Shown piece after piece: positions 37,907 through 60,289 of a DNA stretch of 64,000 bases. How positions within the stretch are numbered: position 1 is the stretch's first letter; each line of letters opens with the position of its first letter. The DNA comes from an uncultured Roseobacter sp. (GTDB lineage Bacteria > Pseudomonadota > Alphaproteobacteria > Rhodobacterales > Rhodobacteraceae). Position numbers and translations under genes: made by a program. The notes under the pieces are model-generated. The model was not told the origin of the DNA, did no database searches, and saw nothing but the letters and a program-made list of their open reading frames with translations. The DNA is taken from assembly GCA_947501635.1 (NCBI GenBank), contig CANMWT010000007.1, positions 62,001 through 126,000 of the forward strand. Reading direction: 5' to 3'.

Positions 37907-38686
37907 TCAGACGCGGCGTTCGACCATCATCTTCTTGATGTTCGCAATCGCCTCTGCGGGGTTCAGACCTTTGGGACAAGTCTTGGCGCAGTTCATGATC
38001 GTGTGGCAGCGATAGAGTTTGAAAGGGTCTTCAAGATCGTCCAGACGCTCGCCCGTGGCCTCATCGCGACTATCGATGATCCAGCGGTAGGCGTGCAGCA
38101 GCGCCGCGGGCCCAAGGTACCTGTCACCGTTCCACCAGTAACTGGGGCAGGAGGTCGAACAGGAGGCGCACATCACACATTCATAGAGACCGTCAAGCTT
38201 CTTGCGGTCCTCAATAGACTGTTTCCACTCCTTGGCGGGACGGTTTGTCTTGGTTTCCAGCCACGGCATGATCGACGCGTGTTGCGCGTAGAAATGCGTC
38301 AGGTCCGGGATCAGGTCCTTGACCACGGGCATATGCGGCAGCGGGTAGATTTTCACGTCCCCTTTCACTTCGTCCATCCCATAGATGCAGGCGAGCGTGT
38401 TGATGCCGTCAATGTTCATCGCGCACGACCCGCAAATACCCTCACGGCAGGAGCGCCGGAAGGTCAGGGTCGGGTCGATTTCATTCTTGATCTTGATAAG
38501 CGCGTCCAGAATCATCGGGCCGCAGCTGTCCATATCAACGAAATAGGTATCGACACGCGGATTTTTCCCGTCGTCAGGGTTCCAGCGGTAGATCTGGAAC
38601 TTCCGCAGGTTTGTCGCGTCTTCCGGCTTGGGCCAGGTGGTGCCCGTGGTCATACGGGAGTTCTTGGGAAGAGTAAGCTGTACCAT
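37907..38686 (-). CDS. sdhB: Succinate dehydrogenase iron-sulfur subunit
   Basis: Iron-sulfur subunit of respiratory complex II, carrying electrons from the SdhA flavin to ubiquinone. The [2Fe-2S] ligands are Cys80, Cys85, Cys88 and Cys100 ([22 protein letters not shown]), the [4Fe-4S] motif is [12 protein letters not shown] and the [3Fe-4S] motif CHTIMNC followed by AKTCPKG. The length of 259 residues is normal. AAGGA about ten bases before the ATG supports the start. It is separated from sdhA by three unrelated genes and a 185-bp gap, so it may have its own promoter. Confidence 0.98.
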
Positions 38687-39928: not shown

Positions 39929-40231
39929 TCAGCCGCGTCCTGCAACACAGTACAGATTGCCGCGATACATGCCCGTCATGTGGTCAGGGCACAGGTGGCT
40001 GCGTGGCGCGATGACCTGATACTCAGGGTTGCGGCAGTACAGATCACCACGATAGATTTCACGGTACTCGGGTGGGCAGTTGTTCATCACTGTGCTGCTG
40101 CCGGAATACTTCCCTGCCTTATAGCTCTGGTCGGTGATCTTACCGCCGCTGTGGCCGTCAGCCTGCGCGGCGACGGCTGTGGTCAGGCACATCGCAGCGG
40201 CCGCTGCTGCAGCGCAAAAAATGCGTTTCAT
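39929..40231 (-). CDS. Small exported protein with two CPx6YRG(D/N)LYC repeats
   Basis: A 100-residue product with a signal peptide ([24 protein letters not shown]). The mature part holds two copies of a 15-residue unit: CPPEYREIYRGDLYC (52-66) and CPDHMTGMYRGNLYC (81-95), spaced 29 residues apart and probably each a disulfide or metal-binding hairpin. No named family recognised. Its ATG overlaps the sdhA stop by one base (TGATG), so it is translated right after SdhA, and the FkbM gene follows. Confidence 0.8.
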   Translation of the reverse strand: MKRIFCAAAAAAAMCLTTAVAAQADGHSGGKITDQSYKAGKYSGSSTVMNNCPPEYREIYRGDLYCRNPEYQVIAPRSHLCPDHMTGMYRGNLYCVAGRG

Positions 40232-42036
40232 CAGAATGTCCTTTTCTTCGGAGCAATTTTCTTGGGATCAATCCCACCGTCATTGTGACTGGTCAGAGGC
40301 TGTTCGTGAACCCCCCGATATCCAAGAGAAGCTTTGTTCCCTTTGAACCAGATCAGCGAGTGCTTGCGCCAGTTCTCGTCATCGCGCTCCGGGAAATCCT
40401 CATGCGCATGCGCGCCGCGGCTTTCCTTGCGTGCCTCGGCCCCCGTGATCGTCGCGACTGCATTGGGGATCAGGTTGGCGAGTTCCAGTGTTTCCATCAG
40501 GTCCGAATTCCACACGAGGCTGCGGTCGGTCACGCCGACGTCTGCCCATTTGTCTGCCACTTCTTCCATCGCCTTCTTGCCTTCGGCAAGGGTCTCGTTG
40601 GCGCGGAAAACCGCGGCATCCTTTTGCATGGTTTGTTGCATTTCCAAACGCAGCTCTGCGGTGGACATGTGCCCCTTGGCATAACGCGTGTTGTCAAACC
40701 GGTCGAGCGCCGCATCAACCGATTTCTGGTTCGGCGCGGGTACAGGGCTGTCAGGATCAACGATCTTACCGGCACGGATGGCCGCCGCGCGACCAAAGAC
40801 GACAAGGTCAATCAGGGAGTTCGACCCAAGGCGATTGGCCCCATGCACAGAGGCACAACCCGCTTCTCCCACAGCCATCAGACCAGGGCTCACACGGTCG
40901 GGGCTGTCGGCTGTCGGGGCCAGCACCTCGCCCCAATAGTTCGTGGGAATACCTCCCATGTTGTAGTGCACGGTGGGCAGCACGGGGATCGGCTCTTTGT
41001 TGAGGTTCACACCCGCAAACACACGTGCACTTTCAGAGATACCGGGCAGACGCAGTTTCAGCGTCTCGGGCGGCAGGTGGTTGAGGTTGAGGTGAATGTG
41101 ATCGCCATTGGCACCCACCCCGCGGCCTTCGCGGATTTCCATGGTCATGCAGCGGCTGACATAGTCACGCGGTGCAAGGTCCTTGTACTGCGGTGCGTAA
41201 CGTTCCATGAACCGCTCGCCCTCGGAGTTGGTCAGATACCCCCCCTCGCCGCGCGCGCCTTCGGTAATCAGACAACCCGCACCATAAATACCGGTGGGGT
41301 GGAACTGCACGAACTCCATATCCTGCAGTGGCAGTCCGGCGCGCGCCGTCATGCCGCCGCCGTCACCGGTGCAGGTGTGTGCGGACGTGGCCGAGAAATA
41401 GGCGCGCCCGTATCCGCCCGTGGCCAGTACAACCATTTTCGAGCTGAACAGGTGCAATGTGCCGTCATCCAGTTTCCAGCACAAAACCCCCTGACACACA
41501 CCGTCGTCCGACATGATGAGATCGATGGCGAAATACTCGATGTAAAACTCTGCGTTGTTCTTCAGCGACTGGCCATAAAGCGTGTGCAAAATAGCGTGGC
41601 CGGTCCGGTCGGCGGCCGCACAGGTTCTCTGGACCGCGGGACCTTCCCCAAATTCCGTCGTGTGACCGCCAAAGGGACGCTGGTAGATTTTGCCCTCTTC
41701 AGTACGCGAGAACGGCACGCCGTAATGCTCAAGCTCGTAAACCGCCTTGGGCGCTTCGCGGGCCAGATACTCCATGGCGTCTGTATCGCCCAGCCAGTCA
41801 GACCCTTTGACCGTGTCATACATATGCCACTGCCAGTTGTCGGGGCCCATGTTGGACAGCGACGCGGCGATGCCCCCTTGTGCCGCCACCGTGTGCGAGC
41901 GTGTCGGAAATACTTTGGTCACACAGGCAGTACGCAGCCCCTGCTCCGCCATCCCAAGTGTCGCACGCAGCCCTGCGCCACCGGCACCAACGACGACCAC
42001 GTCGTATTCGTGCGTTTCGTATTCGTATGAAGCCAT
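40231..42036 (-). CDS. sdhA: Succinate dehydrogenase flavoprotein subunit
   Basis: FAD subunit of complex II: oxidises succinate to fumarate at the inner membrane. The FAD-binding start is [21 protein letters not shown], the covalent FAD His lies in [15 protein letters not shown], and [20 protein letters not shown] is the substrate-domain block. The length of 601 residues is normal. GGGGAG about eight bases before ATG 42036 marks the start; a frame extension to 42144 is rejected. It is the third gene of sdhC-sdhD-sdhA. Confidence 0.98.
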
Positions 42037-42085
42037 GGAATTCTCCCCTGGAACTTTTTGGCGCGCTTGCCCGCGCCTGAATGGA

Positions 42086-42457
42086 TTACAGCGCGAGCCG
42101 GACGATGGCGTAAAGCCCAAAGCCCATTGCCGCATAGCTGACACAGGTCATCGCGATCATGGCAACCTTCTGCGCCATGCCGTGCACATAGTCTTCGATC
42201 AGCGCCTGAACCCCGTCGGCAAAATGCTTGAAGGTCACAACAATCGTGAGCCCCGCGACGACCGCCGGGAAGGGCCGGGCAAAGTAAGCTGTCACTTCTT
42301 CATACGACGCCCCGAGCATAGGCCCGAAAGTAAAGACAAAGAGAGGGATCAGGATCAGCAGAGCGCCGGAGCTCACGGTCATGGCCCAATGATGCTCGGT
42401 ACCGGATTTCGCGGACCCCATGCCGGTGGCGCGCTTGCGGTCGGTCAGATAACTCAT
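42086..42457 (-). CDS. sdhD: Succinate dehydrogenase membrane anchor subunit
   Basis: Complex II anchor with three hydrophobic helices, 123 residues. It starts [24 protein letters not shown], a common alphaproteobacterial SdhD form, and carries the heme-region pattern [20 protein letters not shown], with conserved His and Asp-Tyr residues near the quinone and heme b site. It lies 12 bp from sdhC and 49 bp from sdhA on the same strand, in the usual order sdhC-sdhD-sdhA. Confidence 0.95.
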
Positions 42458-42468
42458 GTGCGGCTCCT

Positions 42469-42852
42469 TTAAACGATAGCGATTGTCAGCAGGGTAAGCA
42501 CAAACGACCCGCCAATCACCGCATAGCCAAGTTTGTAGGCTGTCTCGAGGTCAAGGCCCACGCCCTGATCCCAGATCAGATGCCGCACACCCGCCAGTGT
42601 GTGATACCACAGCCCCCAAAGCGACAAGGTCATCACCAGATCCCCGAACCAGCTCGTCAACACACCATTGGCAATATCGAAATACTCTGGCGAAGTCGCC
42701 GCGGCCAGAAACCACCAGACAACGAGCAAAGCCGAGATCAGCAGGGCATTCCCCGTTATCCGCGTCAAAATCGACGTCATCGAGGTCAGTTGCGGGCGGT
42801 AGATCGTCAGATGCGGCGACAAGGGGCGATTGCCCCGATTCACATCAGCCAT
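42469..42852 (-). CDS. sdhC: Succinate dehydrogenase cytochrome b556 subunit
   Basis: Cytochrome b-type anchor subunit of complex II, 127 residues with three membrane helices. The family start is NRPLSPHLTIYRPQLTSMTSILTRITG, and the heme His is in WYHTLAGVRHLIWDQG. It is the first gene of the sdh operon. The 150 bp upstream hold a 31-bp bipartite GTGATCAC element also found before sucC. Confidence 0.97.
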   Translation of the reverse strand: MADVNRGNRPLSPHLTIYRPQLTSMTSILTRITGNALLISALLVVWWFLAAATSPEYFDIANGVLTSWFGDLVMTLSLWGLWYHTLAGVRHLIWDQGVGLDLETAYKLGYAVIGGSFVLTLLTIAIV

Positions 42853-42974
42853 TGTAGATTCCTTTTGTTCCCTGCCTCCTTTTTACTCCAATTTAGGCAC
42901 ATGTCACGCGCGGCATCGCCTCACAGCCGCGTTAAATTGGCGCGATTTGCAGAAAAAATCCGAAATTCTCGCAG

Positions 42975-43005
42975 TTGTGATCACAGCAGCCAAAAGTGTG
43001 ATCAC
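42975..43005 (-). promoter_or_regulatory. Bipartite GTGATCAC operator-like element upstream of sdhC
   Basis: Read toward sdhC (minus strand) it is GTGATCACACTTTT, six variable bases (GGCTGC), then TGTGATCACAA. The two palindrome centres are 21 bp apart, two helical turns, at about 128 and 149 bp from the sdhC ATG. All 25 non-spacer positions are identical to the element before sucC, so it is very likely the operator of a regulator shared by sdh and suc. The regulator is not encoded in the window. Confidence 0.85.
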
Positions 43006-50211: not shown

Positions 50212-50242
50212 GTGATCACACTTTTTAAACGTGTGATCACAA
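50212..50242 (+). promoter_or_regulatory. Bipartite GTGATCAC operator-like element upstream of sucC
   Basis: GTGATCACACTTTT, six variable bases (TAAACG), then TGTGATCACAA. Palindrome centres are 21 bp apart and lie about 115 and 136 bp before the sucC ATG. All 25 fixed positions match the element upstream of sdhC. Flanks are AT-rich. This is strong evidence for a common regulator of the sdh and suc operons, identity unknown; CceR and AkgR regulate such genes in Rhodobacter sphaeroides, but I cannot match this motif to either. Confidence 0.85.
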
Positions 50243-50350
50243 ATTCGGTTTTTAGGTCGGATTTGCCTGTTTTCAACTAAAATATGCTTCCCAGGCACGT
50301 TTTCAGTGTGCCTATAAAGCATGCAAAGGTAGCTAAACGGGACAAACCAG

Positions 50351-51544
50351 ATGAACATCCACGAATACCAAGCCAAAGCCCTTCTGCGAAGCTATGGCGC
50401 CCCCGTCTCTGACGGACGCGTTGTTTTAAAGGCGGAGGACGCGAAAACCGCGGCGGGCGCTCTTGATGGCCCGATGTGGGTGGTCAAAGCCCAGATCCAT
50501 GCCGGCGGACGCGGCAAAGGCACTTTCAAAGAGGCGGACGCGGGCGACAAGGGCGGCGTGCGCCTGACCAAATCCGTCGAGGAAGCCGCGGAAGAAGCGA
50601 AAAAGATGCTGGGCCGTACATTGGTCACGCATCAGACCGGTCCCGTGGGCAAACAGGTCAACCGCATCTACATCGAGGACGGCTCGGGCATTGAAACTGA
50701 ACTCTATCTCGCGCTGCTGGTGGATCGCCAGACCAGCCGCGTCAGCTTTGTGTGTTCGACCGAAGGCGGCATGGACATCGAAGAAGTCGCCGCTGCCACG
50801 CCCGAGAAAATTCTCTCGTTCTCCGTAGACCCCGCGACGGGCTATCAGGCGTTCCACGGTCGGCGCATCGCCTTCGCGCTTGGCCTCGAGGGCAAGCAGG
50901 TCAAGCAATGCGTCGGTTTGATGGGGCTGCTCTACAAAGCCTTCATCGAAAAAGACATGGAAATGCTCGAGATCAACCCCCTGATCGTGACCGATGGTGG
51001 CGATCTGAAAGTGCTGGATGCAAAGGTGGCCTTCGACGGTAACGCGATCTACCGCCACGCGGATATCGCGGAACTGCGCGACACAACCGAAGAAGACAGC
51101 AAAGAGCTGGAGGCGTCCAAATACGACCTCAACTACATCGCACTGGATGGCGAGATCGGCTGCATGGTGAACGGTGCCGGTCTGGCGATGGCCACAATGG
51201 ACATCATCAAACTCTATGGCGCGGAGCCTGCGAACTTCCTCGATGTGGGCGGCGGCGCGACCAAAGAGAAAGTAACCGAGGCGTTCAAGATCATTACGTC
51301 CGACCCCAACGTCAAAGGTATTCTGGTCAATATCTTCGGCGGCATCATGCGCTGTGACGTCATTGCCGAAGGCGTGGTTGCCGCGGTTAAGGAAGTCGGC
51401 CTTCAGGTGCCGCTGGTTGTGCGCCTCGAAGGCACCAACGTGCAGCAGGGCAAGGACATCATCAACAATTCCGACGTTGATGTGATTGCCGCCGATGACC
51501 TGAAGGACGGCGCGCAAAAGATCGTGAAAGCGGTCAAGGGCTAG
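50351..51544 (+). CDS. sucC: Succinyl-CoA synthetase beta subunit (ADP/GDP-forming)
   Basis: ATP-grasp subunit of succinyl-CoA synthetase; 397 residues with the family start [44 protein letters not shown] covers the nucleotide-binding loop, and the C-terminal CoA-ligase-type domain has [31 protein letters not shown] and [14 protein letters not shown]. First gene of a long operon; gene 2 starts 5 bp downstream. The partner sucD is separated by three secreted-protein genes. Confidence 0.98.
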
Positions 51545-51549
51545 GACCC

Positions 51550-52161
51550 ATGCGGTTTGCGGCGGCCATATTATTCTGGGTGGCAGGCGCGGCGGGAACA
51601 CTCGCCGACGCCCCCACCGTCGTTGCGCGAGGTTTTGCGCAATTCGAACAAGCTTGCGCCGCCGCGATATCGAATCCTCAGAACTACGTGAACGGGGTGC
51701 CGAACCCGGGCCCGCTGGGCAACAAAACCGTCTCGGTCAGCCCCGACGGTCAGGTCGTGCGCGTGGTCCACCTCCGCGAGAGTGTTACCGAAGACGTCAC
51801 ATTCGTACGCATGCCACAGACGCTCACCGTCTATTGCATGACCCACTACACAGACATGGATGGCGAAAGCCTGATCCACGGTCTCGGCTCCCACGAAGGC
51901 TTCCAACAGTACAGCAAGGATCTGAACGAGGCCCTTCTGGCCTATGCCGACAGCCGCGCGGACCTGACGTTGTTTGGCGGACAAACACCGCAGGAATATG
52001 CGTCGCAATACGGAGGGCAGATCCAGCGCGTGGACTTCCCCAACACATATACATACGGATTTCTGCTGGATGCGGACGGCACACCCGTGCACAGTTTTCT
52101 GGAAATCGAAGCCGGCGGCGTAGGCCTGCACGCGGTACACGTCATCGAGGTCGGCCAATGA
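51550..52161 (+). CDS. Exported hypothetical protein between sucC and sucD (gene A)
   Basis: A 203-residue product with signal peptide MRFAAAILFWVAGAAGTLA. The mature part has Cys36 and Cys96 and a pattern (VVHLRESVTEDVTFVRMP, HGLGSHEGFQQYSKDLNEAL, LLDADGTPVHSFLEIEAGG) that I do not match to a named domain. It begins 5 bp after sucC and its stop overlaps the next gene by ATGA. Nothing suggests a role in succinyl-CoA synthetase. It is probably a periplasmic or secreted protein whose synthesis is coupled to the operon. Confidence 0.78.
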   Translation: MRFAAAILFWVAGAAGTLADAPTVVARGFAQFEQACAAAISNPQNYVNGVPNPGPLGNKTVSVSPDGQVVRVVHLRESVTEDVTFVRMPQTLTVYCMTHYTDMDGESLIHGLGSHEGFQQYSKDLNEALLAYADSRADLTLFGGQTPQEYASQYGGQIQRVDFPNTYTYGFLLDADGTPVHSFLEIEAGGVGLHAVHVIEVGQ

Positions 52162-53153
52162 TGCGCGCCCTCGCCCTTTCTCTGGCGGCCAGCCTTGCCG
52201 TGGCGCCCGTTCAGGCACAGACGCCTGCGCCGGTGTCTGTGGCCAATGACCTGCGGGCCTGTATCGTTGGCGAAGGTGGCTTCCGCGACGCGCAGCGCAT
52301 CGGTCAGCTTGACGCATCGATGGCACGCGTGCCGAACAAGCGCTGGACCAACGTCGTCGAAATAGCGCCCGGTGTACATCGCATCACCGACAGGACATCC
52401 GATATCACCATCGAAATCAAACTACGCGACGCCACGGGCGCGGCCCATTGCGTGGCTTTCGGGCCCAAACTGCGCCCCGGCGACGGTGCACGCGCAGCCG
52501 ACAAATTTGTCGAACTGGGCTTTCTGACAGGTCTTGTGCAAAGCCCGCCGCGCGCAGGCACGCAGCGGCGCTATGTGATCGCAAATGCACCCTACACCGC
52601 CGAATTGATCGCCATGCAGACCGCAGCGCAGGGTGATGTGGTGGGTTTCGTTTTTGCTGACCTGCCCGAGGGCCTGACCACCCGCGCCTTGTCGCGCGGT
52701 GACGCCGCTGTCCTTGCCCCGGCCGCTCAGCTGGCACTTGGCAACGGCATCAACATCTGCTTGCGCCAGTTCTTCCAAACCGACAGCGTGCCCCGGTCAC
52801 TGGCCGCGGCAGGGTTCGAGCTTGGCTTTGAAACCGGCGGCAGCGCGCCGCGCCGAACCTATTTCACCGCCGACAACGCTGTTTCGGTCTCCGTCGGCCC
52901 CGGCAGTTGCAGGGTCGAGACGACTTACCTCAGCGTGGAAAGCGCCCGGCAGATCACCGCGCAAGCGCTTGAACGTAACGCACCGGGTATGTTCCGTTTC
53001 TCCGGTTCGAGCTATGATGGCTGCCCCGCGTTCTTCGCAGGCCCCGGCCTGAACCTGCCGCTGGCGGTCAGCATCTCGAACCTGTCCAGCGGCGGGCGCA
53101 CGACCTGCGTCCCCGACGGCACCAGCCGGATCAGATTCGAGGTGGTGGGATGA
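52158..53153 (+). CDS. Exported hypothetical protein between sucC and sucD (gene B), two modules
   Basis: A 331-residue product with signal peptide MMRALALSLAASLAVAPVQA. It has an N-terminal module (Cys35, Cys98) and a C-terminal module (Cys201, 251, 289, 317) beginning ICLRQFFQ, with PRSLAAAGFEL, a Cys-containing strand GSCRVET, and ending CVPDGTSRIRFEV. The C-terminal module repeats in the next gene. ATG 52158 overlaps the previous stop; a longer reading frame back to 51654 in this frame overlaps gene A and is rejected. It overlaps gene C by ATGA. Confidence 0.78.
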   Translation: MMRALALSLAASLAVAPVQAQTPAPVSVANDLRACIVGEGGFRDAQRIGQLDASMARVPNKRWTNVVEIAPGVHRITDRTSDITIEIKLRDATGAAHCVAFGPKLRPGDGARAADKFVELGFLTGLVQSPPRAGTQRRYVIANAPYTAELIAMQTAAQGDVVGFVFADLPEGLTTRALSRGDAAVLAPAAQLALGNGINICLRQFFQTDSVPRSLAAAGFELGFETGGSAPRRTYFTADNAVSVSVGPGSCRVETTYLSVESARQITAQALERNAPGMFRFSGSSYDGCPAFFAGPGLNLPLAVSISNLSSGGRTTCVPDGTSRIRFEVVG

Positions 53154-53662
53154 TGCGCTCTGCCCTCTTCTGCGGCGCACTGCTGGCCGCTTCGACAGCC
53201 GTCGCCCCCGCTTTCGCCCAAGGCAAGCTTGCCGCGGGCACGCAAAACATGCGCCTTGCAATGGAGCTGTGTCTGCGCAACTACCGCACCCCCGCCAGTC
53301 TGCAACAGGCACTGGCAAACGCGGGTTTTACCCTGCTCCCCGGCGCTGACAGCGACAGCTTTGAATTCAACGGTCCCGGTGTCTGGGGCAACGCGGCGCT
53401 CAGCCCGCCCTACTGCAACATCCAGTCATCGGACGTGCCGCTCGCACTCGCCGAAGAGATGGGGCTCAAGCTGGCCACAAGCCTGTTTGGCGAAACCGTC
53501 GAACGCGGCAGCCCCGAGCGCAACATCGCCACCCCGGTTCAACCCTGCGAAGGTTTGCACATCTTTGCCACGCAAACCGTCATTCGCATCACCTATTCCG
53601 CCGCCGGTAACAGCGGCGAGTGTCTCAACGATGGCACCTCCGCCATCCAAATTCAGATGTAA
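53150..53662 (+). CDS. Exported hypothetical protein between sucC and sucD (gene C), single four-Cys module
   Basis: A 170-residue product with signal peptide MMRSALFCGALLAASTAVAP to AFA. The mature part is one four-cysteine module (Cys41, 89, 133, 158) like the C-terminal half of gene B: CLRNYRTPASLQQALANAGF, PCEGLHIFATQTVIRITY, ECLNDGTSAIQIQM. Function unknown. It overlaps gene B by ATGA and lies 15 bp before sucD, whose AAAGGAAG Shine-Dalgarno is in the gap. Confidence 0.78.
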   Translation: MMRSALFCGALLAASTAVAPAFAQGKLAAGTQNMRLAMELCLRNYRTPASLQQALANAGFTLLPGADSDSFEFNGPGVWGNAALSPPYCNIQSSDVPLALAEEMGLKLATSLFGETVERGSPERNIATPVQPCEGLHIFATQTVIRITYSAAGNSGECLNDGTSAIQIQM

Positions 53663-53677: not shown

Positions 53678-54565
53678 ATGGCCGTACTCATCGATGAAAA
53701 CACCAAAGTGATCTGTCAGGGTCTTACCGGCTCACAGGGCACATTTCACACCGAACAGGCAATTGCCTATGGCACGCAGATGGTTGGCGGTGTCACGCCG
53801 GGCAAAGGTGGCCAGACACACCTCGACCTGCCGGTGTTCAACTCCGTGCACGAGGCCAAACACGTGACAGACGCCAACGCATCCGTGATCTACGTGCCAC
53901 CTCCCTTTGCGGCAGATTCGATCCTCGAAGCGATTGACGCCGAAATGGAACTGATTGTCTGCATCACCGAAGGCATTCCCGTGCTCGACATGATGAAGGT
54001 GCAGCGCGCGCTCGAAGGGTCGAAGTCGCGCCTCGTGGGCCCCAACTGCCCCGGCGTTATCACACCCGACGCCTGCAAGATCGGCATCATGCCGGGCCAC
54101 ATCCACAAGCGCGGCTCCTGCGGCGTGGTCTCGCGCTCGGGCACGCTGACTTACGAAGCGGTAAAACAGACCACCGATCTGGGCTACGGCCAGTCTACGG
54201 CTGTCGGCATCGGCGGCGACCCCATCAAGGGCACAGAGCATATCGACGTGCTCGAAATGTTCCTCGCTGATGACGAAACACAGTCGATCATCATGATCGG
54301 CGAAATCGGCGGCTCTGCCGAAGAAGATGCGGCACAATTCCTTGCTGATGAGAAAAAGAAAGGCCGCTGGAAGCCGACGGCTGGTTTCATCGCGGGCCGC
54401 ACGGCCCCTCCCGGTCGCCGGATGGGCCACGCAGGCGCGATCGTTGCCGGTGGCAAAGGTGGTGCCGAAGACAAGATCGAAGCCATGCGCGCCGCAGGTA
54501 TCGTGGTCGCCGACAGCCCCGCGACGCTGGGGGAAGCGGTGCAAGAGGCTATCGCAAAAGGCTGA
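53678..54565 (+). CDS. sucD: Succinyl-CoA synthetase alpha subunit
   Basis: CoA-binding and phosphohistidine subunit of succinyl-CoA synthetase, 295 residues. The CoA-binding start is [19 protein letters not shown], and the phospho-His is in [30 protein letters not shown] and [11 protein letters not shown] are also conserved. Its start has a good AAAGGAAG site. It stops by overlapping the start of gene D (TGATG). Confidence 0.98.
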
Positions 54566-55305
54566 TGCGTACTCTGTTGGCATATGCGCTTGCTGGCGCT
54601 GCGAGCTATCTCGCAGCAGCGCCAGCTTTTGCTGTGCCAAGTGTTGCATCAACACTCACCCAGTGCCTCAGGCCGCACGAGGACGTAGAACAGGTGCATC
54701 AAGAAGTGATGCGCCTGGGCTGGATGACATTGGACCAGATCGCCCCGCAAGGTACGCGAAACTCAGATAGGCTTTTTGTACCCGATGCAGATTTTGAAAA
54801 TGCCTTTGTTGCGCATTATCATGCCTTCTGGTTCCGTTTGCATGCGTTCTATGACCATGAGAACGGATTGAACTCCGCTCTTGAGCGGTCCTACGACAAG
54901 CACCCCCAAGCCGGTTACTTGATCGACTTCCAGTCAAACGGGCTGCGCAACATTTTCTTTTCCGATACAGAGATGACTTTCGCTCTTTACGTGTTGTCAC
55001 ACGCCGGGCGCCCGGGAAAAAGCGGGCACGGATGTTTGGTTGTCGGAGCAGAACTCGAAGAAGACTTGGCACAGGTTTTTGCCGGTCAACGCGAAATAGA
55101 AACCGAAGTCTCACCCTATCAGCTGGAAAAGCGCTTTTTTCAGGATGCCGGGAAGATTTCCGTTTCGGACCACACGATCTTTGCGCGTTGGGGCGGCAAT
55201 TATGTTCACTGGAACAGTGCAAAACTTGCAGAAGAAACGCAAAACCGGGTCGCACTGGGCGTGTCAACTTCCGCGCACATAACATGGGAAATACCGGTGG
55301 AATGA
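54565..55305 (+). CDS. Exported hypothetical protein between sucD and DUF805 (gene D)
   Basis: A 246-residue product with signal peptide [20 protein letters not shown] to AFA. The mature part opens LTQCLRPHEDVEQVHQEVMRLGW, a Cys-Leu-Arg start like the modules of genes B and C, but the rest (FVAHYHAFWFRLHAFYDH, FLIDFQSN-like region, FARWGGNYVHW) does not repeat their pattern clearly. Few Cys. It overlaps sucD by TGATG and the DUF805 gene by ATGA. Function unknown. Confidence 0.72.
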   Translation: MRTLLAYALAGAASYLAAAPAFAVPSVASTLTQCLRPHEDVEQVHQEVMRLGWMTLDQIAPQGTRNSDRLFVPDADFENAFVAHYHAFWFRLHAFYDHENGLNSALERSYDKHPQAGYLIDFQSNGLRNIFFSDTEMTFALYVLSHAGRPGKSGHGCLVVGAELEEDLAQVFAGQREIETEVSPYQLEKRFFQDAGKISVSDHTIFARWGGNYVHWNSAKLAEETQNRVALGVSTSAHITWEIPVE

Positions 55306-55808
55306 CCTTTCAGCAATCCATCATCACCTGCCTGCGCAAGTATTTCACCTTTTCGGGCCGCGCCACGCGCTCCGAATACTGGTGGTTTTTCCTCTTCTGC
55401 ATCCTCGGCGGCATGATCTTCGGCGCGCTCGAGCAGTTTATCAACGGCATAACCCGCACGCCCAACGGGCCGACACTGCTGTCAGGCGCGTTCAACCTCG
55501 CCACGTTCATCCCCAGCATTGCCGTGGGTTTCCGGCGGATGCACGACACAGGCCGCTCGGGCCTCTATCTCTTTTACCCGATGATCGCGATCATCGGCCT
55601 TCTGACCTTTATCGGCTTTGCCGGCGGGGTCGAAGCACTCGACTCCGAAACGCCGCTCGCGCTCTTTGAAGGCGCATTCGGCGTCATCATCGGGCTTGCG
55701 ATCATCGTGGTCGCGCTTTCACCCTTTATCGTTCTGTGGTGGCTCACCCGCCCCAGCCAACCCGGCCAAAACCAATACGGTCCCAACCCCCATGAGGTAC
55801 ATCCATGA
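55302..55808 (+). CDS. DUF805 membrane protein
   Basis: A 168-residue membrane protein of the DUF805 family: RKYFTFSGRATRSEYWWFFLF is the signature, with about four helices and the C-terminal LSPFIVLWWLTRPSQPGQNQYGP. Function unknown. I take ATG 55302, which overlaps the previous stop (ATGA) and is preceded by GGTGGA. Its own stop overlaps the start of sucA. A frame extension to 55032 is rejected because it lies in gene D in another frame. Confidence 0.85.
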   Translation: MTFQQSIITCLRKYFTFSGRATRSEYWWFFLFCILGGMIFGALEQFINGITRTPNGPTLLSGAFNLATFIPSIAVGFRRMHDTGRSGLYLFYPMIAIIGLLTFIGFAGGVEALDSETPLALFEGAFGVIIGLAIIVVALSPFIVLWWLTRPSQPGQNQYGPNPHEVHP

Positions 55809-58768
55809 CCGAACAAAGAAATGACCAGTTCCACGCCTCCAGCTTTATGCAGGGCCACAACGCCGAATACCTTGAACAGATGTATGCGCGCTACGCCAAC
55901 GATCCGGTCGCCGTTGATGAGGCATGGCAGGCGTTCTTCAAGGCCATGGGCGATGATGAGGTATCCGTCAAACACGAGGCCGCCGGCCCCTCCTGGGCCC
56001 GCAGCGACTGGCCACCGCAACCGGGTGACGACCTGACGGCCGCCCTGACCGGCGAATGGGCCCCCGAGCCTGCAGAGGCCAAAGCGGCAGGCAAGAAAAT
56101 TCAGGCAAAGGCGGCCGAAACGGGCGTGGAAGTGTCAAACGACCAGATCAAACGCGCCGTGCTCGACAGCATCCGCGCGCTGATGCTGATCCGTGCCTAC
56201 CGGATCCGGGGGCACCTCGTGGCTGACCTTGATCCGCTTGGCATGCGCGACAACACCCCACACCCAGAGCTTGACCCCAAGTCCTATGGCTTCACCGAAG
56301 CCGACATGGACCGCCCGATCTTTATCGACAAGGTCCTCGGCCTTGATATCGCATCCATGCGCGAGATCATCGCGATCGTCAAACGCACCTATTGTGGCAC
56401 CTTCGCCCTGCAATACATGCACATCTCCAACCCCGAAGAGGCCGGCTGGCTGAAAGAGCGCATCGAGGGTCTGGGCAAGGAAGTCCAGTTCACCCGTGAG
56501 GGCCGCAAGGCGATCCTGAGCAAGCTGGTCGAGGCCGAAGGTTTCGAAAAGTTCCTGCACGTCAAATACATGGGCACAAAACGCTTCGGCCTTGATGGCG
56601 GCGAAAGCCTCGTACCCGCGATGGAACAGATTATCAAACGCGGCGGCGCACTGGGCGTCAAGGATATCGTCATCGGCATGCCCCACCGCGGGCGTTTGTC
56701 GGTTCTGGCCAATGTGATGGCAAAACCCTACCGCGCGATCTTCAACGAATTTCAGGGCGGCAGCTTCAAGCCCGAAGACGTCGACGGCTCGGGCGACGTG
56801 AAATACCACCTTGGCGCATCTTCAGACCGCGAGTTCGACGGCAATTCGGTCCATCTCAGCCTGACGGCAAACCCTTCCCACCTTGAGGCGGTGAACCCCG
56901 TCGTGCTGGGCAAATGCCGCGCCAAGCAAGACCAGAACAACGATCCTGCGCGCACGTCGGTCATGCCCATCCTGCTGCACGGCGACGCAGCATTTGCCGG
57001 GCAGGGCGTGGTGGCCGAGTGTTTCGCGCTATCGGGCCTGCGCGGTCACAAGGCGGGCGGTACGATGCACATCGTGGTCAACAACCAGATCGGCTTTACC
57101 ACCGCGCCGCACTTCTCACGCTCCAGCCCCTACCCCACCGACAACGCACTGGTGGTCGAGGCACCGATCTTCCACGTCAATGGCGACGATCCCGAAGCGG
57201 TGGTGCATGCCGCCAAAGTTGCCACGGAGTTCCGGCAGAAGTTTGGCAAGGACGTCGTGATCGACATCTTCTGCTATCGCCGGTTTGGCCACAACGAGGG
57301 CGACGAGCCCATGTTCACCAACCCGATCATGTACAAGAAAATCAAAGGCCACAAAACCACGCTCAGCCTCTACACAGAGCGTCTGGTCAAGGACGGCTTG
57401 ATCCCCGAAGGCGAGATCGAAGACATGAAGGCCGCCTTTCAGGCCTATATGAATGAAGAATTCGAGGCCGGAAAGGAATACCGCCCCAACAAGGCTGACT
57501 GGCTGGATGGCAAGTGGTCACATCTGGATAAAATGGCCGAGAAGAAGTACCAGCGCGGCAAGACCGCCATTTCCAAAAAGACCATGGAAGAGGTTGGAAA
57601 AGCGCTTGTCTCCGTGCCGGAAGGCATTCCGATCCACAAAACGGTCGGACGGTTGCTGGATGCAAAAACAGAAATGTTCAAATCCGGCAAGGGCTTTGAC
57701 TGGGCCACCGCCGAAGCGCTGGCATTCGGGTCGCTGCTGACCGAAGGCTTCCCCGTGCGGCTTGCCGGGCAGGACAGCACGCGCGGCACCTTCAGCCAGC
57801 GGCATTCAGGCCTTGTGAACCAGAACACCGAAGAACGCTACTACCCGCTCAACAACATCAAGCCGGGTCAGGCACAGTACGAAGTCATAGACTCCATGCT
57901 GTCGGAATACGCGGTTCTTGGGTTCGAATACGGCTACTCACTGGCCGAACCCAACGCGCTGACCCTGTGGGAGGCCCAGTTCGGTGATTTCGCCAATGGC
58001 GCGCAGATCATGTTCGACCAGTTCATCTCTTCCGGCGAAAGTAAATGGTTGCGGATGTCCGGCCTTGTCTGCCTGCTGCCCCACGGGTTCGAAGGTCAGG
58101 GCCCCGAACACTCCTCCGCCCGCCTCGAACGCTTCCTGCAGATGTGCGGACAGGACAACTGGATCGTGGCCAACTGCACCACGCCGGCAAACTACTTCCA
58201 CATCCTGCGGCGGCAAATCCACCGGTCTTTCCGCAAACCGCTGATCCTGATGACGCCGAAATCGCTATTGCGCCACAAGCTCGCGATATCCACGGCAGAC
58301 GAGTTCACAACAGGCTCCAGCTTCCACCGCCTGATGTGGGACGACGCCCAACACGGCAACTCCAACACCAAACTGGTTGCAGACAACAAGATCAAACGCG
58401 TCGTCATGTGTTCAGGCAAAGTCTACTACGACCTGCTGGAAGAACGCGACGAACGCGGTATCGACGATATCTACCTTCTGCGTGTTGAACAGTTCTATCC
58501 CTTCCCCGCACAATCCGCGGTCAAGGAACTGGAACGCTTCAAACAGGCCGAAGTTGTCTGGTGTCAGGAAGAGCCCAAGAACCAGGGCGCCTGGACCTTC
58601 ATCGAGCCAAACATCGAATGGGTCCTCGGCCGCATCAAAGCCAAGCATCCGCGCCCGCGCTACGTGGGCCGCGCCACATCCGCCTCGCCCGCAACTGGGC
58701 TCGCAAGCCAACACAAAGCACAGCAAGCAGCACTTGTGAACGAAGCGCTGTCGATTGAAGGGAAATAA
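55805..58768 (+). CDS. sucA: 2-oxoglutarate dehydrogenase E1 component
   Basis: Thiamine-diphosphate-dependent E1 of the 2-oxoglutarate dehydrogenase complex, 987 residues. It has the short N-terminal E2-binding region (FMQGHNAEYLEQMYARYA), GMPHRGRLSVLANVMAKPY in the TPP domain, NNQIGFTTAP and GHNEGDEPMFTNP. Start ATG 55805 overlaps the DUF805 stop. Product: succinyl-dihydrolipoyl-E2 and CO2 from 2-oxoglutarate. It is followed 3 bp later by the E2 gene. Confidence 0.98.
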   Translation: MTEQRNDQFHASSFMQGHNAEYLEQMYARYANDPVAVDEAWQAFFKAMGDDEVSVKHEAAGPSWARSDWPPQPGDDLTAALTGEWAPEPAEAKAAGKKIQAKAAETGVEVSNDQIKRAVLDSIRALMLIRAYRIRGHLVADLDPLGMRDNTPHPELDPKSYGFTEADMDRPIFIDKVLGLDIASMREIIAIVKRTYCGTFALQYMHISNPEEAGWLKERIEGLGKEVQFTREGRKAILSKLVEAEGFEKFLHVKYMGTKRFGLDGGESLVPAMEQIIKRGGALGVKDIVIGMPHRGRLSVLANVMAKPYRAIFNEFQGGSFKPEDVDGSGDVKYHLGASSDREFDGNSVHLSLTANPSHLEAVNPVVLGKCRAKQDQNNDPARTSVMPILLHGDAAFAGQGVVAECFALSGLRGHKAGGTMHIVVNNQIGFTTAPHFSRSSPYPTDNALVVEAPIFHVNGDDPEAVVHAAKVATEFRQKFGKDVVIDIFCYRRFGHNEGDEPMFTNPIMYKKIKGHKTTLSLYTERLVKDGLIPEGEIEDMKAAFQAYMNEEFEAGKEYRPNKADWLDGKWSHLDKMAEKKYQRGKTAISKKTMEEVGKALVSVPEGIPIHKTVGRLLDAKTEMFKSGKGFDWATAEALAFGSLLTEGFPVRLAGQDSTRGTFSQRHSGLVNQNTEERYYPLNNIKPGQAQYEVIDSMLSEYAVLGFEYGYSLAEPNALTLWEAQFGDFANGAQIMFDQFISSGESKWLRMSGLVCLLPHGFEGQGPEHSSARLERFLQMCGQDNWIVANCTTPANYFHILRRQIHRSFRKPLILMTPKSLLRHKLAISTADEFTTGSSFHRLMWDDAQHGNSNTKLVADNKIKRVVMCSGKVYYDLLEERDERGIDDIYLLRVEQFYPFPAQSAVKELERFKQAEVVWCQEEPKNQGAWTFIEPNIEWVLGRIKAKHPRPRYVGRATSASPATGLASQHKAQQAALVNEALSIEGK

Positions 58769-58771
58769 GAA

Positions 58772-60289
58772 ATGACCACCGAAGTACGTGTACCCACACT
58801 GGGTGAATCAGTGACCGAGGCGACTGTCGCCACATGGTTCAAAAAACCCGGAGAAGCGGTCGCCGTAGATGAAATGCTCTGCGAGCTGGAAACCGACAAA
58901 GTCACCGTAGAAGTGCCATCGCCCATGGCAGGCACATTGGGCGAAATAATCGCCGCTGAAGGTGATACCGTCGGCGTCGACGCACTGCTGGCCACATTGA
59001 TCGAAGGCGATGGCGCAGCAGCGCCGGCAGCGCCTGCCAAAGCCGAAGCAGCCGCGCCGGCAGCAGCCGAAAGCAGCGGCGCATCGGTGGACGTGATGGT
59101 GCCCACGCTCGGCGAAAGCGTGACCGAGGCCACCGTCAGCACATGGTTCAAAGCCGTAGGCGACACCGTGGCACAGGACGAAATGCTCTGCGAACTGGAA
59201 ACCGACAAGGTGTCTGTCGAGGTACCCGCACCGGCCGCTGGCGTGCTCAGCGAAATTCTGGCCCCTGAAGGCGAAACCGTCGCCGCAGGCGGCAAGCTTG
59301 CGGTGATGTCCTCAGGCGCAGGTGCCGCCGCTGCAGCGCCCGCAGCCCAAGACGCGCCCGCCCCTGCGGCAGCCCCCGCCGCCGCTGCCGGCAAAGACGT
59401 CGAGGACGCGCCTTCCGCCAAAAAGGCAATGGCCGAGGCGGGCATCAGCGCCGATCAGGTCACCGGCACAGGCCGCGACGGGCGCATCATGAAAGAGGAC
59501 GTGGCCAGCGCCATCGCCGCAGCCAGCGCTGCACCAGCGCCTGCCGCAGCCCCCGCCGCTCCGCGCGCGCCGGTCTCTGCAGATGATGCCAGCCGCGAGG
59601 AACGGGTCAAGATGACCCGCCTGCGCCAGACCATCGCCAAGCGCCTCAAGGACAGCCAGAACACCGCGGCCATGCTGACCACCTACAACGAGGTCGACAT
59701 GACCGAGGTGATGGCGCTCCGCAACGAGTACAAAGACCTGTTCTTCAAAAAGCACGGCGTGAAACTGGGCTTTATGTCCTTCTTTACCAAAGCCTGCTGC
59801 CACGCACTGAAAGAAGTACCGGAGGTTAACGCCGAGATCGACGGCACCGACATCGTCTACAAGAATTTCGTGCACATGGGCATCGCCGCCGGCACGCCCA
59901 CGGGGCTTGTCGTGCCGGTGATCCGCGACGCGGATTCGATGTCTTTCCACGCCATCGAACAGGCCATCGCCGAAAAAGGCGCGCGCGCCCGCGACGGCAA
60001 ACTCAGCATGGCTGAAATGCAGGGCGGCACCTTCACGATTTCCAACGGCGGTGTCTATGGCTCGCTCATGTCCTCGCCCATTCTGAACCCGCCGCAATCG
60101 GGTATCCTTGGCATGCACAAGATTCAGGACCGCCCGATGGCAATCAACGGGCAGGTGGTAATCAGGCCGATGATGTATCTGGCGCTGTCCTACGACCACC
60201 GGATCGTCGATGGCAAAGGGGCCGTCACTTTCCTCGTCCGCGTCAAGGAAGCCCTCGAAGATCCACGGCGCCTGCTGATGGATTTGTAA
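58772..60289 (+). CDS. sucB: Dihydrolipoyllysine succinyltransferase (E2 of 2-oxoglutarate dehydrogenase), two lipoyl domains
   Basis: E2 core of the 2-oxoglutarate dehydrogenase complex, 505 residues. It has two lipoyl domains, each with the lipoyl Lys in ELETDKV (Lys43 and Lys146), separated by an Ala/Pro linker, then a peripheral-subunit-binding domain (about 211-247) and the catalytic domain with the active His in [11 protein letters not shown]. coli SucB has one lipoyl domain. The two repeats are alike at DNA level (about 58775-59005 and 59087-59311). It starts 3 bp after sucA. Confidence 0.97.

Follow-up and report, generated by a model that had tools for sequence, protein, structure and literature searches.

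Phased palindrome pairs before the sdh and suc operons of an uncultured Roseobacter: candidate double operators for the GntR-type regulator AkgR

Two central operons of the tricarboxylic acid (TCA) cycle, sdh and suc, are preceded by the same bipartite sequence in an uncultured Roseobacter sp., and this raises the question of which regulator reads that sequence and in what way. Both copies lie in the window, by which we mean the whole stretch of 64,000 nucleotides analysed here (contig CANMWT010000007.1 of assembly GCA_947501635.1, positions 62,001 to 126,000 of the forward strand). Read directly, the sequence is GTGATCACACTTTT-GGCTGC-TGTGATCACAA on the minus strand at 43005-42975, ahead of sdhC, and GTGATCACACTTTT-TAAACG-TGTGATCACAA on the plus strand at 50212-50242, ahead of sucC. 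Each element is 31 base pairs (bp) long and contains the palindrome GTGATCAC twice, with 13 nucleotides between the copies (N13) and 21 bp between their centres. The reading that we favour, with a probability of about 0.8, is that each element would be a double operator for AkgR, a GntR/FCD-type regulator encoded elsewhere in the genome, which would activate sdh and suc from upstream.

A first-pass annotation, made from the letters of the window, had described identical elements before the two operons; when re-read, the coordinates, the identity of the sdh and suc elements at 25 of 25 named positions and the 21-bp distance between centres were as it claimed. In the sdh pair (minus strand) the promoter-distal palindrome occupies 42998-43005 and the promoter-proximal one 42977-42984, with AA after it (42976-42975), while in the suc pair (plus strand) the distal palindrome occupies 50212-50219 and the proximal one 50233-50240, with AAA after it; these placements rest on the sequence and on the relatives described below. 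The distance to the start codons, given earlier as about 115-150 bp, is 122 bp from the edge of the sdh element to the sdhC ATG (42852) and 108 bp from the edge of the suc element to the sucC ATG (50351), near the earlier figures. No further copy of the palindrome had been noticed in the window, and indeed exact GTGATCAC occurs in it four times, every time within one of the two elements, and sites with one mismatch show no enrichment (31 against 25.6 expected).

In the genome, of 4.2 megabases, the palindrome alone is at chance level, with 54 copies against 56 expected from base composition or 69 from dinucleotides, both expectations being derived from the base make-up of the window (a reversed-word control gave 2 copies, contains the tetramer CTAG and was hence not used). 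For the pair GTGATCAC-N13-GTGATCAC, chance would give 0.0007 occurrences from 54 sites; two are present, those at sdh and suc, so that there is no random scatter of the element over the genome. A role for the single copies elsewhere was considered and dropped. Among the 54 places, 50 were listed, four of which make up the two pairs, and a crude coding filter run on the other 46 labelled 42 as coding and four as intergenic (L171, L178, L184 and L194). The sequence TGTGATCACA is not present at these four intergenic sites, among the places listed, and is carried by one site labelled coding (L192). The sole site with TTTGTGATCACAAA among the 46 singles listed is L073, ahead of akgR, which received the label coding through an overlapping reverse-strand frame.

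Nor is the element absent from relatives. Of the 19 genomes of the genus, 18 have two N13 pairs and one, G016, has a single N13 pair, its sucC pair having a 12-nucleotide gap (N12). Each of the 19 has an N13 pair ahead of sdhC, and none of them contains the reversed-pattern control. In the family, sampled as one genome for each of 248 genera, 222 genomes have a pair whose gap is 0-30 and one has the control pattern. For 75 pairs listed from 37 of these 222 genomes the gap is N13 in 64, i.e. 21 bp between centres or two turns of the helix, N12 (20 bp) in six and another length in five (5, 10, 19 and 23, one or two each), which agrees with the earlier suggestion that two sites on the same face of the DNA would be bound. 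This listing is the fairer figure for spacing, as the set of 85 placed ahead of either sdhC or sucC (83 N13 and two N12) is biased, the genus loci having been found through the N13 search and the family loci chosen by hand. When the context of 86 pairs was fetched, 44 stood before sdhC, 41 before sucC (two of them N12) and one before sucA, and 83 of the sdhC/sucC pair sequences were distinct. The pair before sucA belongs to G195 (L319, 5433-5461), in which the suc genes begin with sucA and the pair is directly ahead of it.

Alignment of the relatives shows that the 13-bp spacer is variable save for its ends and an A/T-rich middle, that the outer flanks are A/T-rich and that AAA mostly follows the proximal palindrome, the conserved core being approximately (T)GTGATCAC(A/G)-N11-(T/C)GTGATCACAA. 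The identity at 25 of 25 positions therefore holds in the window but is partly fortuitous, because the ACTTTT that both window elements have between their palindromes falls in the variable spacer and is not conserved in relatives.

A wider sample took in alphaproteobacteria at large (387 genomes, completeness filter 90). Outside the family, 22 of 381 genomes have two palindromes at a gap of 0-30, and just two of these show N13 (G392 and G435, the latter with a GC-rich spacer). All six family members in this sample have two pairs each, N12 twice in G073 and once in G228. From these counts the N13/N12 pair appears to be largely a feature of this family. G392 belongs to another alphaproteobacterial family, and its N13 pair (L317, G392:C189, 992-1020) is followed after about 170 bp by a GntR gene whose product is 30% identical to AkgR; other members of the subfamily may use paired sites too.

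Which protein would bind the pair is suggested by work on Rhodobacter sphaeroides. AkgR of this organism is a transcriptional activator with the motif GTGATCAC (PMC6365646), and the GntR-family protein RSP_0981 is the predicted regulator of sucCD (RSP_0967-6), sdh (RSP_0974-6) and the alpha-ketoglutarate dehydrogenase genes (RSP_0965-62) (PMC4344238). The comparison with AkgR that the first-pass annotation had proposed thus finds the AkgR motif twice in each element, and both N13 pairs of the genome stand ahead of sdhC or sucC, with sucD, sucA and sucB downstream on the same strand, i.e. the predicted targets of RSP_0981. We take AkgR and RSP_0981 to be the same protein, and the primary AkgR paper, by Imam et al. 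in 2015, is said to report direct activation of TCA-cycle genes. The AkgR regulon of R. sphaeroides and the system studied here have in common the GntR family, the GTGATCAC motif and the sdh and suc/alpha-ketoglutarate dehydrogenase targets; they differ in that akgR and sdh are on separate contigs in the window's genome.

The regulator is not encoded near the elements, as had been remarked: all 14 FCD-type GntR genes of the genome lie on contigs other than the window's. The best candidate, on contig C1 (G000:C1:280412-281059, L033), has TTTGTGATCACAAA just ahead of its ATG. Its product has a single 78% match in Cereibacter johrii, the next best being at 31%, and both the candidate and this match have GntR (PF00392) and FCD (PF07729) domains above cut-off. 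In G069, a Cereibacter genome that is 95.6% identical to C. johrii over 19.7 kilobases (kb), the orthologue of the candidate lies about 0.75 kb beyond sdhB, which matches the order implied by the locus tags RSP_0974-6 and RSP_0981, and 21-bp pairs are present ahead of both sdhC and sucC. The C. johrii match and this gene order are strong though indirect evidence that the candidate is the orthologue of RSP_0981. The closest solved structure to the candidate by sequence is PDB 4p9f (E = 1.3e-20, residues 20-212), McbR of Escherichia coli.

The distribution of the candidate over the 248 family genomes follows that of the pair. With orthologues accepted at E<=1e-50, pairs at a gap of 0-30, one genome per genus and kinship uncorrected, 219 genomes have both the pair and the orthologue, three the pair only, five the orthologue only and 21 neither. 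Among the genomes with the orthologue only, G058 does carry the two pairs, each of them with a single mismatch, and G140, G165 and G184 are less than 80% complete. Two genomes without the pair contain broken akgR-like genes, as pieces in different frames in G127 (L282) and with internal stops in G175 (L279), and these breaks may be assembly errors.

A palindrome also stands before the candidate gene. In the 30 closest akgR orthologues fetched, GTGATCAC is found upstream of the start in all 30, and in the form TTGA[CT]-GTGATCAC-ATG, with the ATG a few bases past the palindrome, in 29 (L039-L068; L042, L044 and L057 were counted as matching by reading the listing, and L060 was not). At a 17-bp spacing the -10 box would overlap the palindrome and transcription would begin at or near the ATG, which suggests that akgR is a leaderless, self-repressed gene: from the single palindrome over this putative core promoter, AkgR would probably repress its own expression. 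In G205 a close pair takes the place of the single palindrome in the akgR promoter.

The position of the pairs relative to the promoters bears on how they might act. Before sdhC, a putative -35 box, GTGACA (42902-42907, minus strand), corresponds to a GTGAC[AT] conserved in relatives 16 bp ahead of a conserved TA-rich -10, here the putative box TAAAAA (42880-42885, minus strand). Such a GTGAC[AT]-N16-TA promoter is found in 40 of 43 sdh regions, at 48, 57-60, 69-71 or 78-79 bp past the pair; the other three are without GTGACW (W, A or T) and give no distance. Before sucC, the putative -35 box TTCCCA (50288-50293, plus strand) starts 47 bp past the proximal palindrome, an offset that is fixed in relatives: without any alignment gap, 40 suc regions have T at +47 in 95% and at +48 in 93%, which we read as the start of the -35 box. 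The suc -10 box, TATAAA (50313-50318, plus strand), is tentative, being placed at a long spacing from the -35 box where relatives have a weak A/T peak (+72/+73). A/T-rich stretches recur in the suc regions near +1, +11, +22, +32 and +40, and the DNA behind the suc pair may be bent. Counted from the start sites that these boxes imply, the suc pair would lie at about -88/-109 and the sdh pair at about -107/-128.

The distances before sdhC fall into classes. We searched 394 genomes for GTGACW located 50-80 bp past an N13 pair; this search, which is blind to other distances, matched 232 genomes, and in the 150 rows listed (149 genomes) the distance is 57-60 bp in 132, 69-70 in nine, 77-80 in seven, 55 in one and 66 in one. 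The rows at 55 and 66 and both of those at 77 were rejected as sdh promoters, as they are located before sucC with a chance GTGACW, and they are not counted below. We re-fetched 39 of the 150 rows (18 outside 57-60 and 21 inside), the other 111, at 57-60, being mostly unchecked for sdhC. In the 42 sequences confirmed to precede sdhC the distances are 48 (one), 57-60 (21), 69-71 (15) and 78-80 bp (five), i.e. steps of a helical turn; the value for the four class centres under a crude null is 0.003. In a tree built from 38 SdhA rows, from which four short fragments (G001, G003, G011 and G018) were excluded and which may depart from species history, the four classes need 13 changes, and well-supported branches force at least seven for the 70-bp class. 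A second conserved element in the sdh regions of relatives, GCGCCAATTTAACGCGG (42927-42943, minus strand, between the pair and the sdh promoter), consists of GCGCCAA, then an A/T-rich stretch, then CGCG. Twenty of the 43 sdh regions contain GCGCCAA, placed at +23/24 where the -35 box is at 59-60 and at +33/34 where it is at 69-70; it moves with the -35 box, and in those sequences the extra turn therefore lies between GCGCCAA and the pair.

We thus picture two AkgR dimers that would sit next to each other on the same helical face, one on each GTGATCAC palindrome, and, possibly in answer to a signal, would activate sdhCDAB and sucC-sucD-sucA-sucB from upstream; whole helical turns could be inserted between the pair and the sdh promoter, AkgR keeping to the face of RNA polymerase. 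On balance we lean towards the more specific view that this regulator of FadR/GntR type is a long-range, strictly face-dependent activator, with dimers two turns apart, with a distance to RNA polymerase that may vary by whole turns only and with one dimer silencing its own putative leaderless promoter; the spacing would have changed several times, always in phase in the confirmed cases.

The same binding could have the opposite outcome, AkgR repressing sdh and suc, which we hold to be unlikely. GntR-family proteins are often repressors, and AkgR is apparently placed to repress its own gene from the core-promoter site, but the pairs at sdh and suc are 47-80 bp upstream of the putative -35 boxes and not over them, and they keep a helical phase with the promoter that a steric repressor would not need. 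The description of AkgR in R. sphaeroides as a transcriptional activator (PMC6365646) also speaks for activation. There is a somewhat smaller chance still that the reader of the pair is not AkgR but a GntR/FCD paralogue whose recognition helix is similar, such as the one encoded at G000:C1:55612-56409. This protein is 35% identical to AkgR and has the stretch TP.REA.RRL in common with it, and GTGATCAC is shared within the subfamily, as it accompanies both the GntR gene of G392 and PS417_07240, the GntR regulator of a deoxyribonate cluster in Pseudomonas simiae (PMC6365646). The Pseudomonas protein is related to AkgR (32% identical) and differs in that its own gene has a single palindrome, from -47 to -40, and that it serves another pathway; the excerpt mentions no pair. 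As a control in the co-occurrence analysis (L030), however, the paralogue was not found (E>1e-50) in 104 of the 222 genomes that have the pair, against three of 222 for the AkgR orthologue, and its 3.3-kb locus holds no exact GTGATCAC.

CceR, a CRP/FNR-type regulator or some other global factor is a highly improbable reader of the elements. TGTGA..TCACA resembles a CRP site, and CceR is presumably RSP_1663; exact TGTGA-N6-TCACA and TTGAT-N4-ATCAA (the CRP/FNR consensus patterns) and the RSP_1663 motif [AGT]GTT-N6-8-AAC[ACT] are nevertheless absent from both elements on both strands, as the comparison with CceR and Crp motifs suggested in the first pass brought out, and the presence of the pair tracks akgR. 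RSP_1663 and NtrC are predicted to act at sdh of R. sphaeroides (PMC4344238). CceR controls central carbon metabolism and has R. sphaeroides sdh in its regulon, but it belongs to the LacI family and has a different predicted motif (listed under RSP_1663); in Paracoccus denitrificans, sdh and 2-oxoglutarate dehydrogenase are outside the CceR regulon. We give the least credence to an RNA structure or terminator, an idea that comes from the suc copy, which is able to form a 20-bp hairpin (arms of 20 nucleotides, 95% complementary, with 1 nucleotide between them). The arms of the sdh pair match over 9 bp only, each palindrome is complete alone, a single one stands at akgR, and the elements are upstream of the putative transcription starts. 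At 12 mirrored spacer positions in 81 spacers (38 suc and 43 sdh), ten pair less often than shuffled columns, one equally and one, suc 4/10, more often (0.42 against 0.31), and for want of consistent covariation (one of 12 positions above shuffled) the hairpin or terminator was rejected.

Several observations weigh against the favoured AkgR reading. For a classical activator contact, palindromes located at -88 or further upstream are distant; the suc -10 box is weak and the -35 and -10 boxes are all predictions, and the site list and activation data for AkgR come at second hand. Three genomes, G037, G132 and G114 (77% complete), have the pair and no clear orthologue; conversely G173, which is 92% complete in about 370 contigs, has the orthologue and no exact pair, with seven matches at one or two mismatches. 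The palindrome of the akgR promoter is absent in G058, G173 and G069, the Cereibacter genome, which in this respect is unlike the window's genome. The control paralogue too is associated with the pair (118 of 222 genomes against two of 26 without the pair, P = 5e-6), and shared ancestry therefore inflates the co-occurrence of akgR and pair. Lastly, the sdh distance classes are barely more clustered on the SdhA tree than shuffled labels (25 of 200 shuffles as low for all classes; 183 of 500 for the 70-bp class, with nine changes), and so the tree resolves the history of turn gains poorly.

If AkgR is the reader, the pairs indicate what regulates sdh and suc, both central to the TCA cycle, in most family genera sampled and extend to these genera the regulon described in R. 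sphaeroides. The regulator, its motif and its targets were already known in that species, and we claim no priority for the pairing, the phasing or the akgR core-promoter site; in excerpts of the related literature (PMC11323563, PMC4344238, PMC6365646, PMC7471390 and PMC4419725), a coverage that leaves the primary 2015 AkgR paper outside, we found no description of a paired, phased arrangement. What is added here is the 21-bp geometry of the double operator, conserved across many genera and apparently in helical phase with the promoter, which looks like useful extra detail. The whole-turn spacing, if true, would amount to a natural helix-phasing experiment and give a handle on how a GntR-family protein activates transcription.

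The presumed regulated operons were assigned from domain and family matches. On the plus strand, sucC (50351-51544, NCBIfam PRK00696) would be the first gene of its operon, followed by sucD (53678-54565, Pfam CoA_binding and Ligase_CoA), sucA for 2-oxoglutarate dehydrogenase E1 (55805-58768, Pfam) and sucB for E2 (58772-60289, Pfam, named from its position). Between sucC and sucD (51654-53662) there are frames of 499 and 170 amino acids, and after sucD (54565-55305) one of 246 amino acids; none of the three has a Pfam or NCBIfam match, and their relatives were not found in the suc region of G016, where about 2.8 kb separate sucC and sucD. On the minus strand, sdhC for the cytochrome b556 subunit (42469-42852, Pfam Sdh_cyt and NCBIfam succ_dehyd_cytB) would be the first gene of the sdh operon, followed by sdhD (42086-42457, Pfam Sdh_cyt, named from its position), the sdhA frame (40231-42144, Pfam FAD_binding_2 and Succ_DH_flav_C) and sdhB for the iron-sulfur subunit (37907-38686). 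The sdhA frame overlaps sdhD, and the true sdhA start is therefore probably inside the frame.
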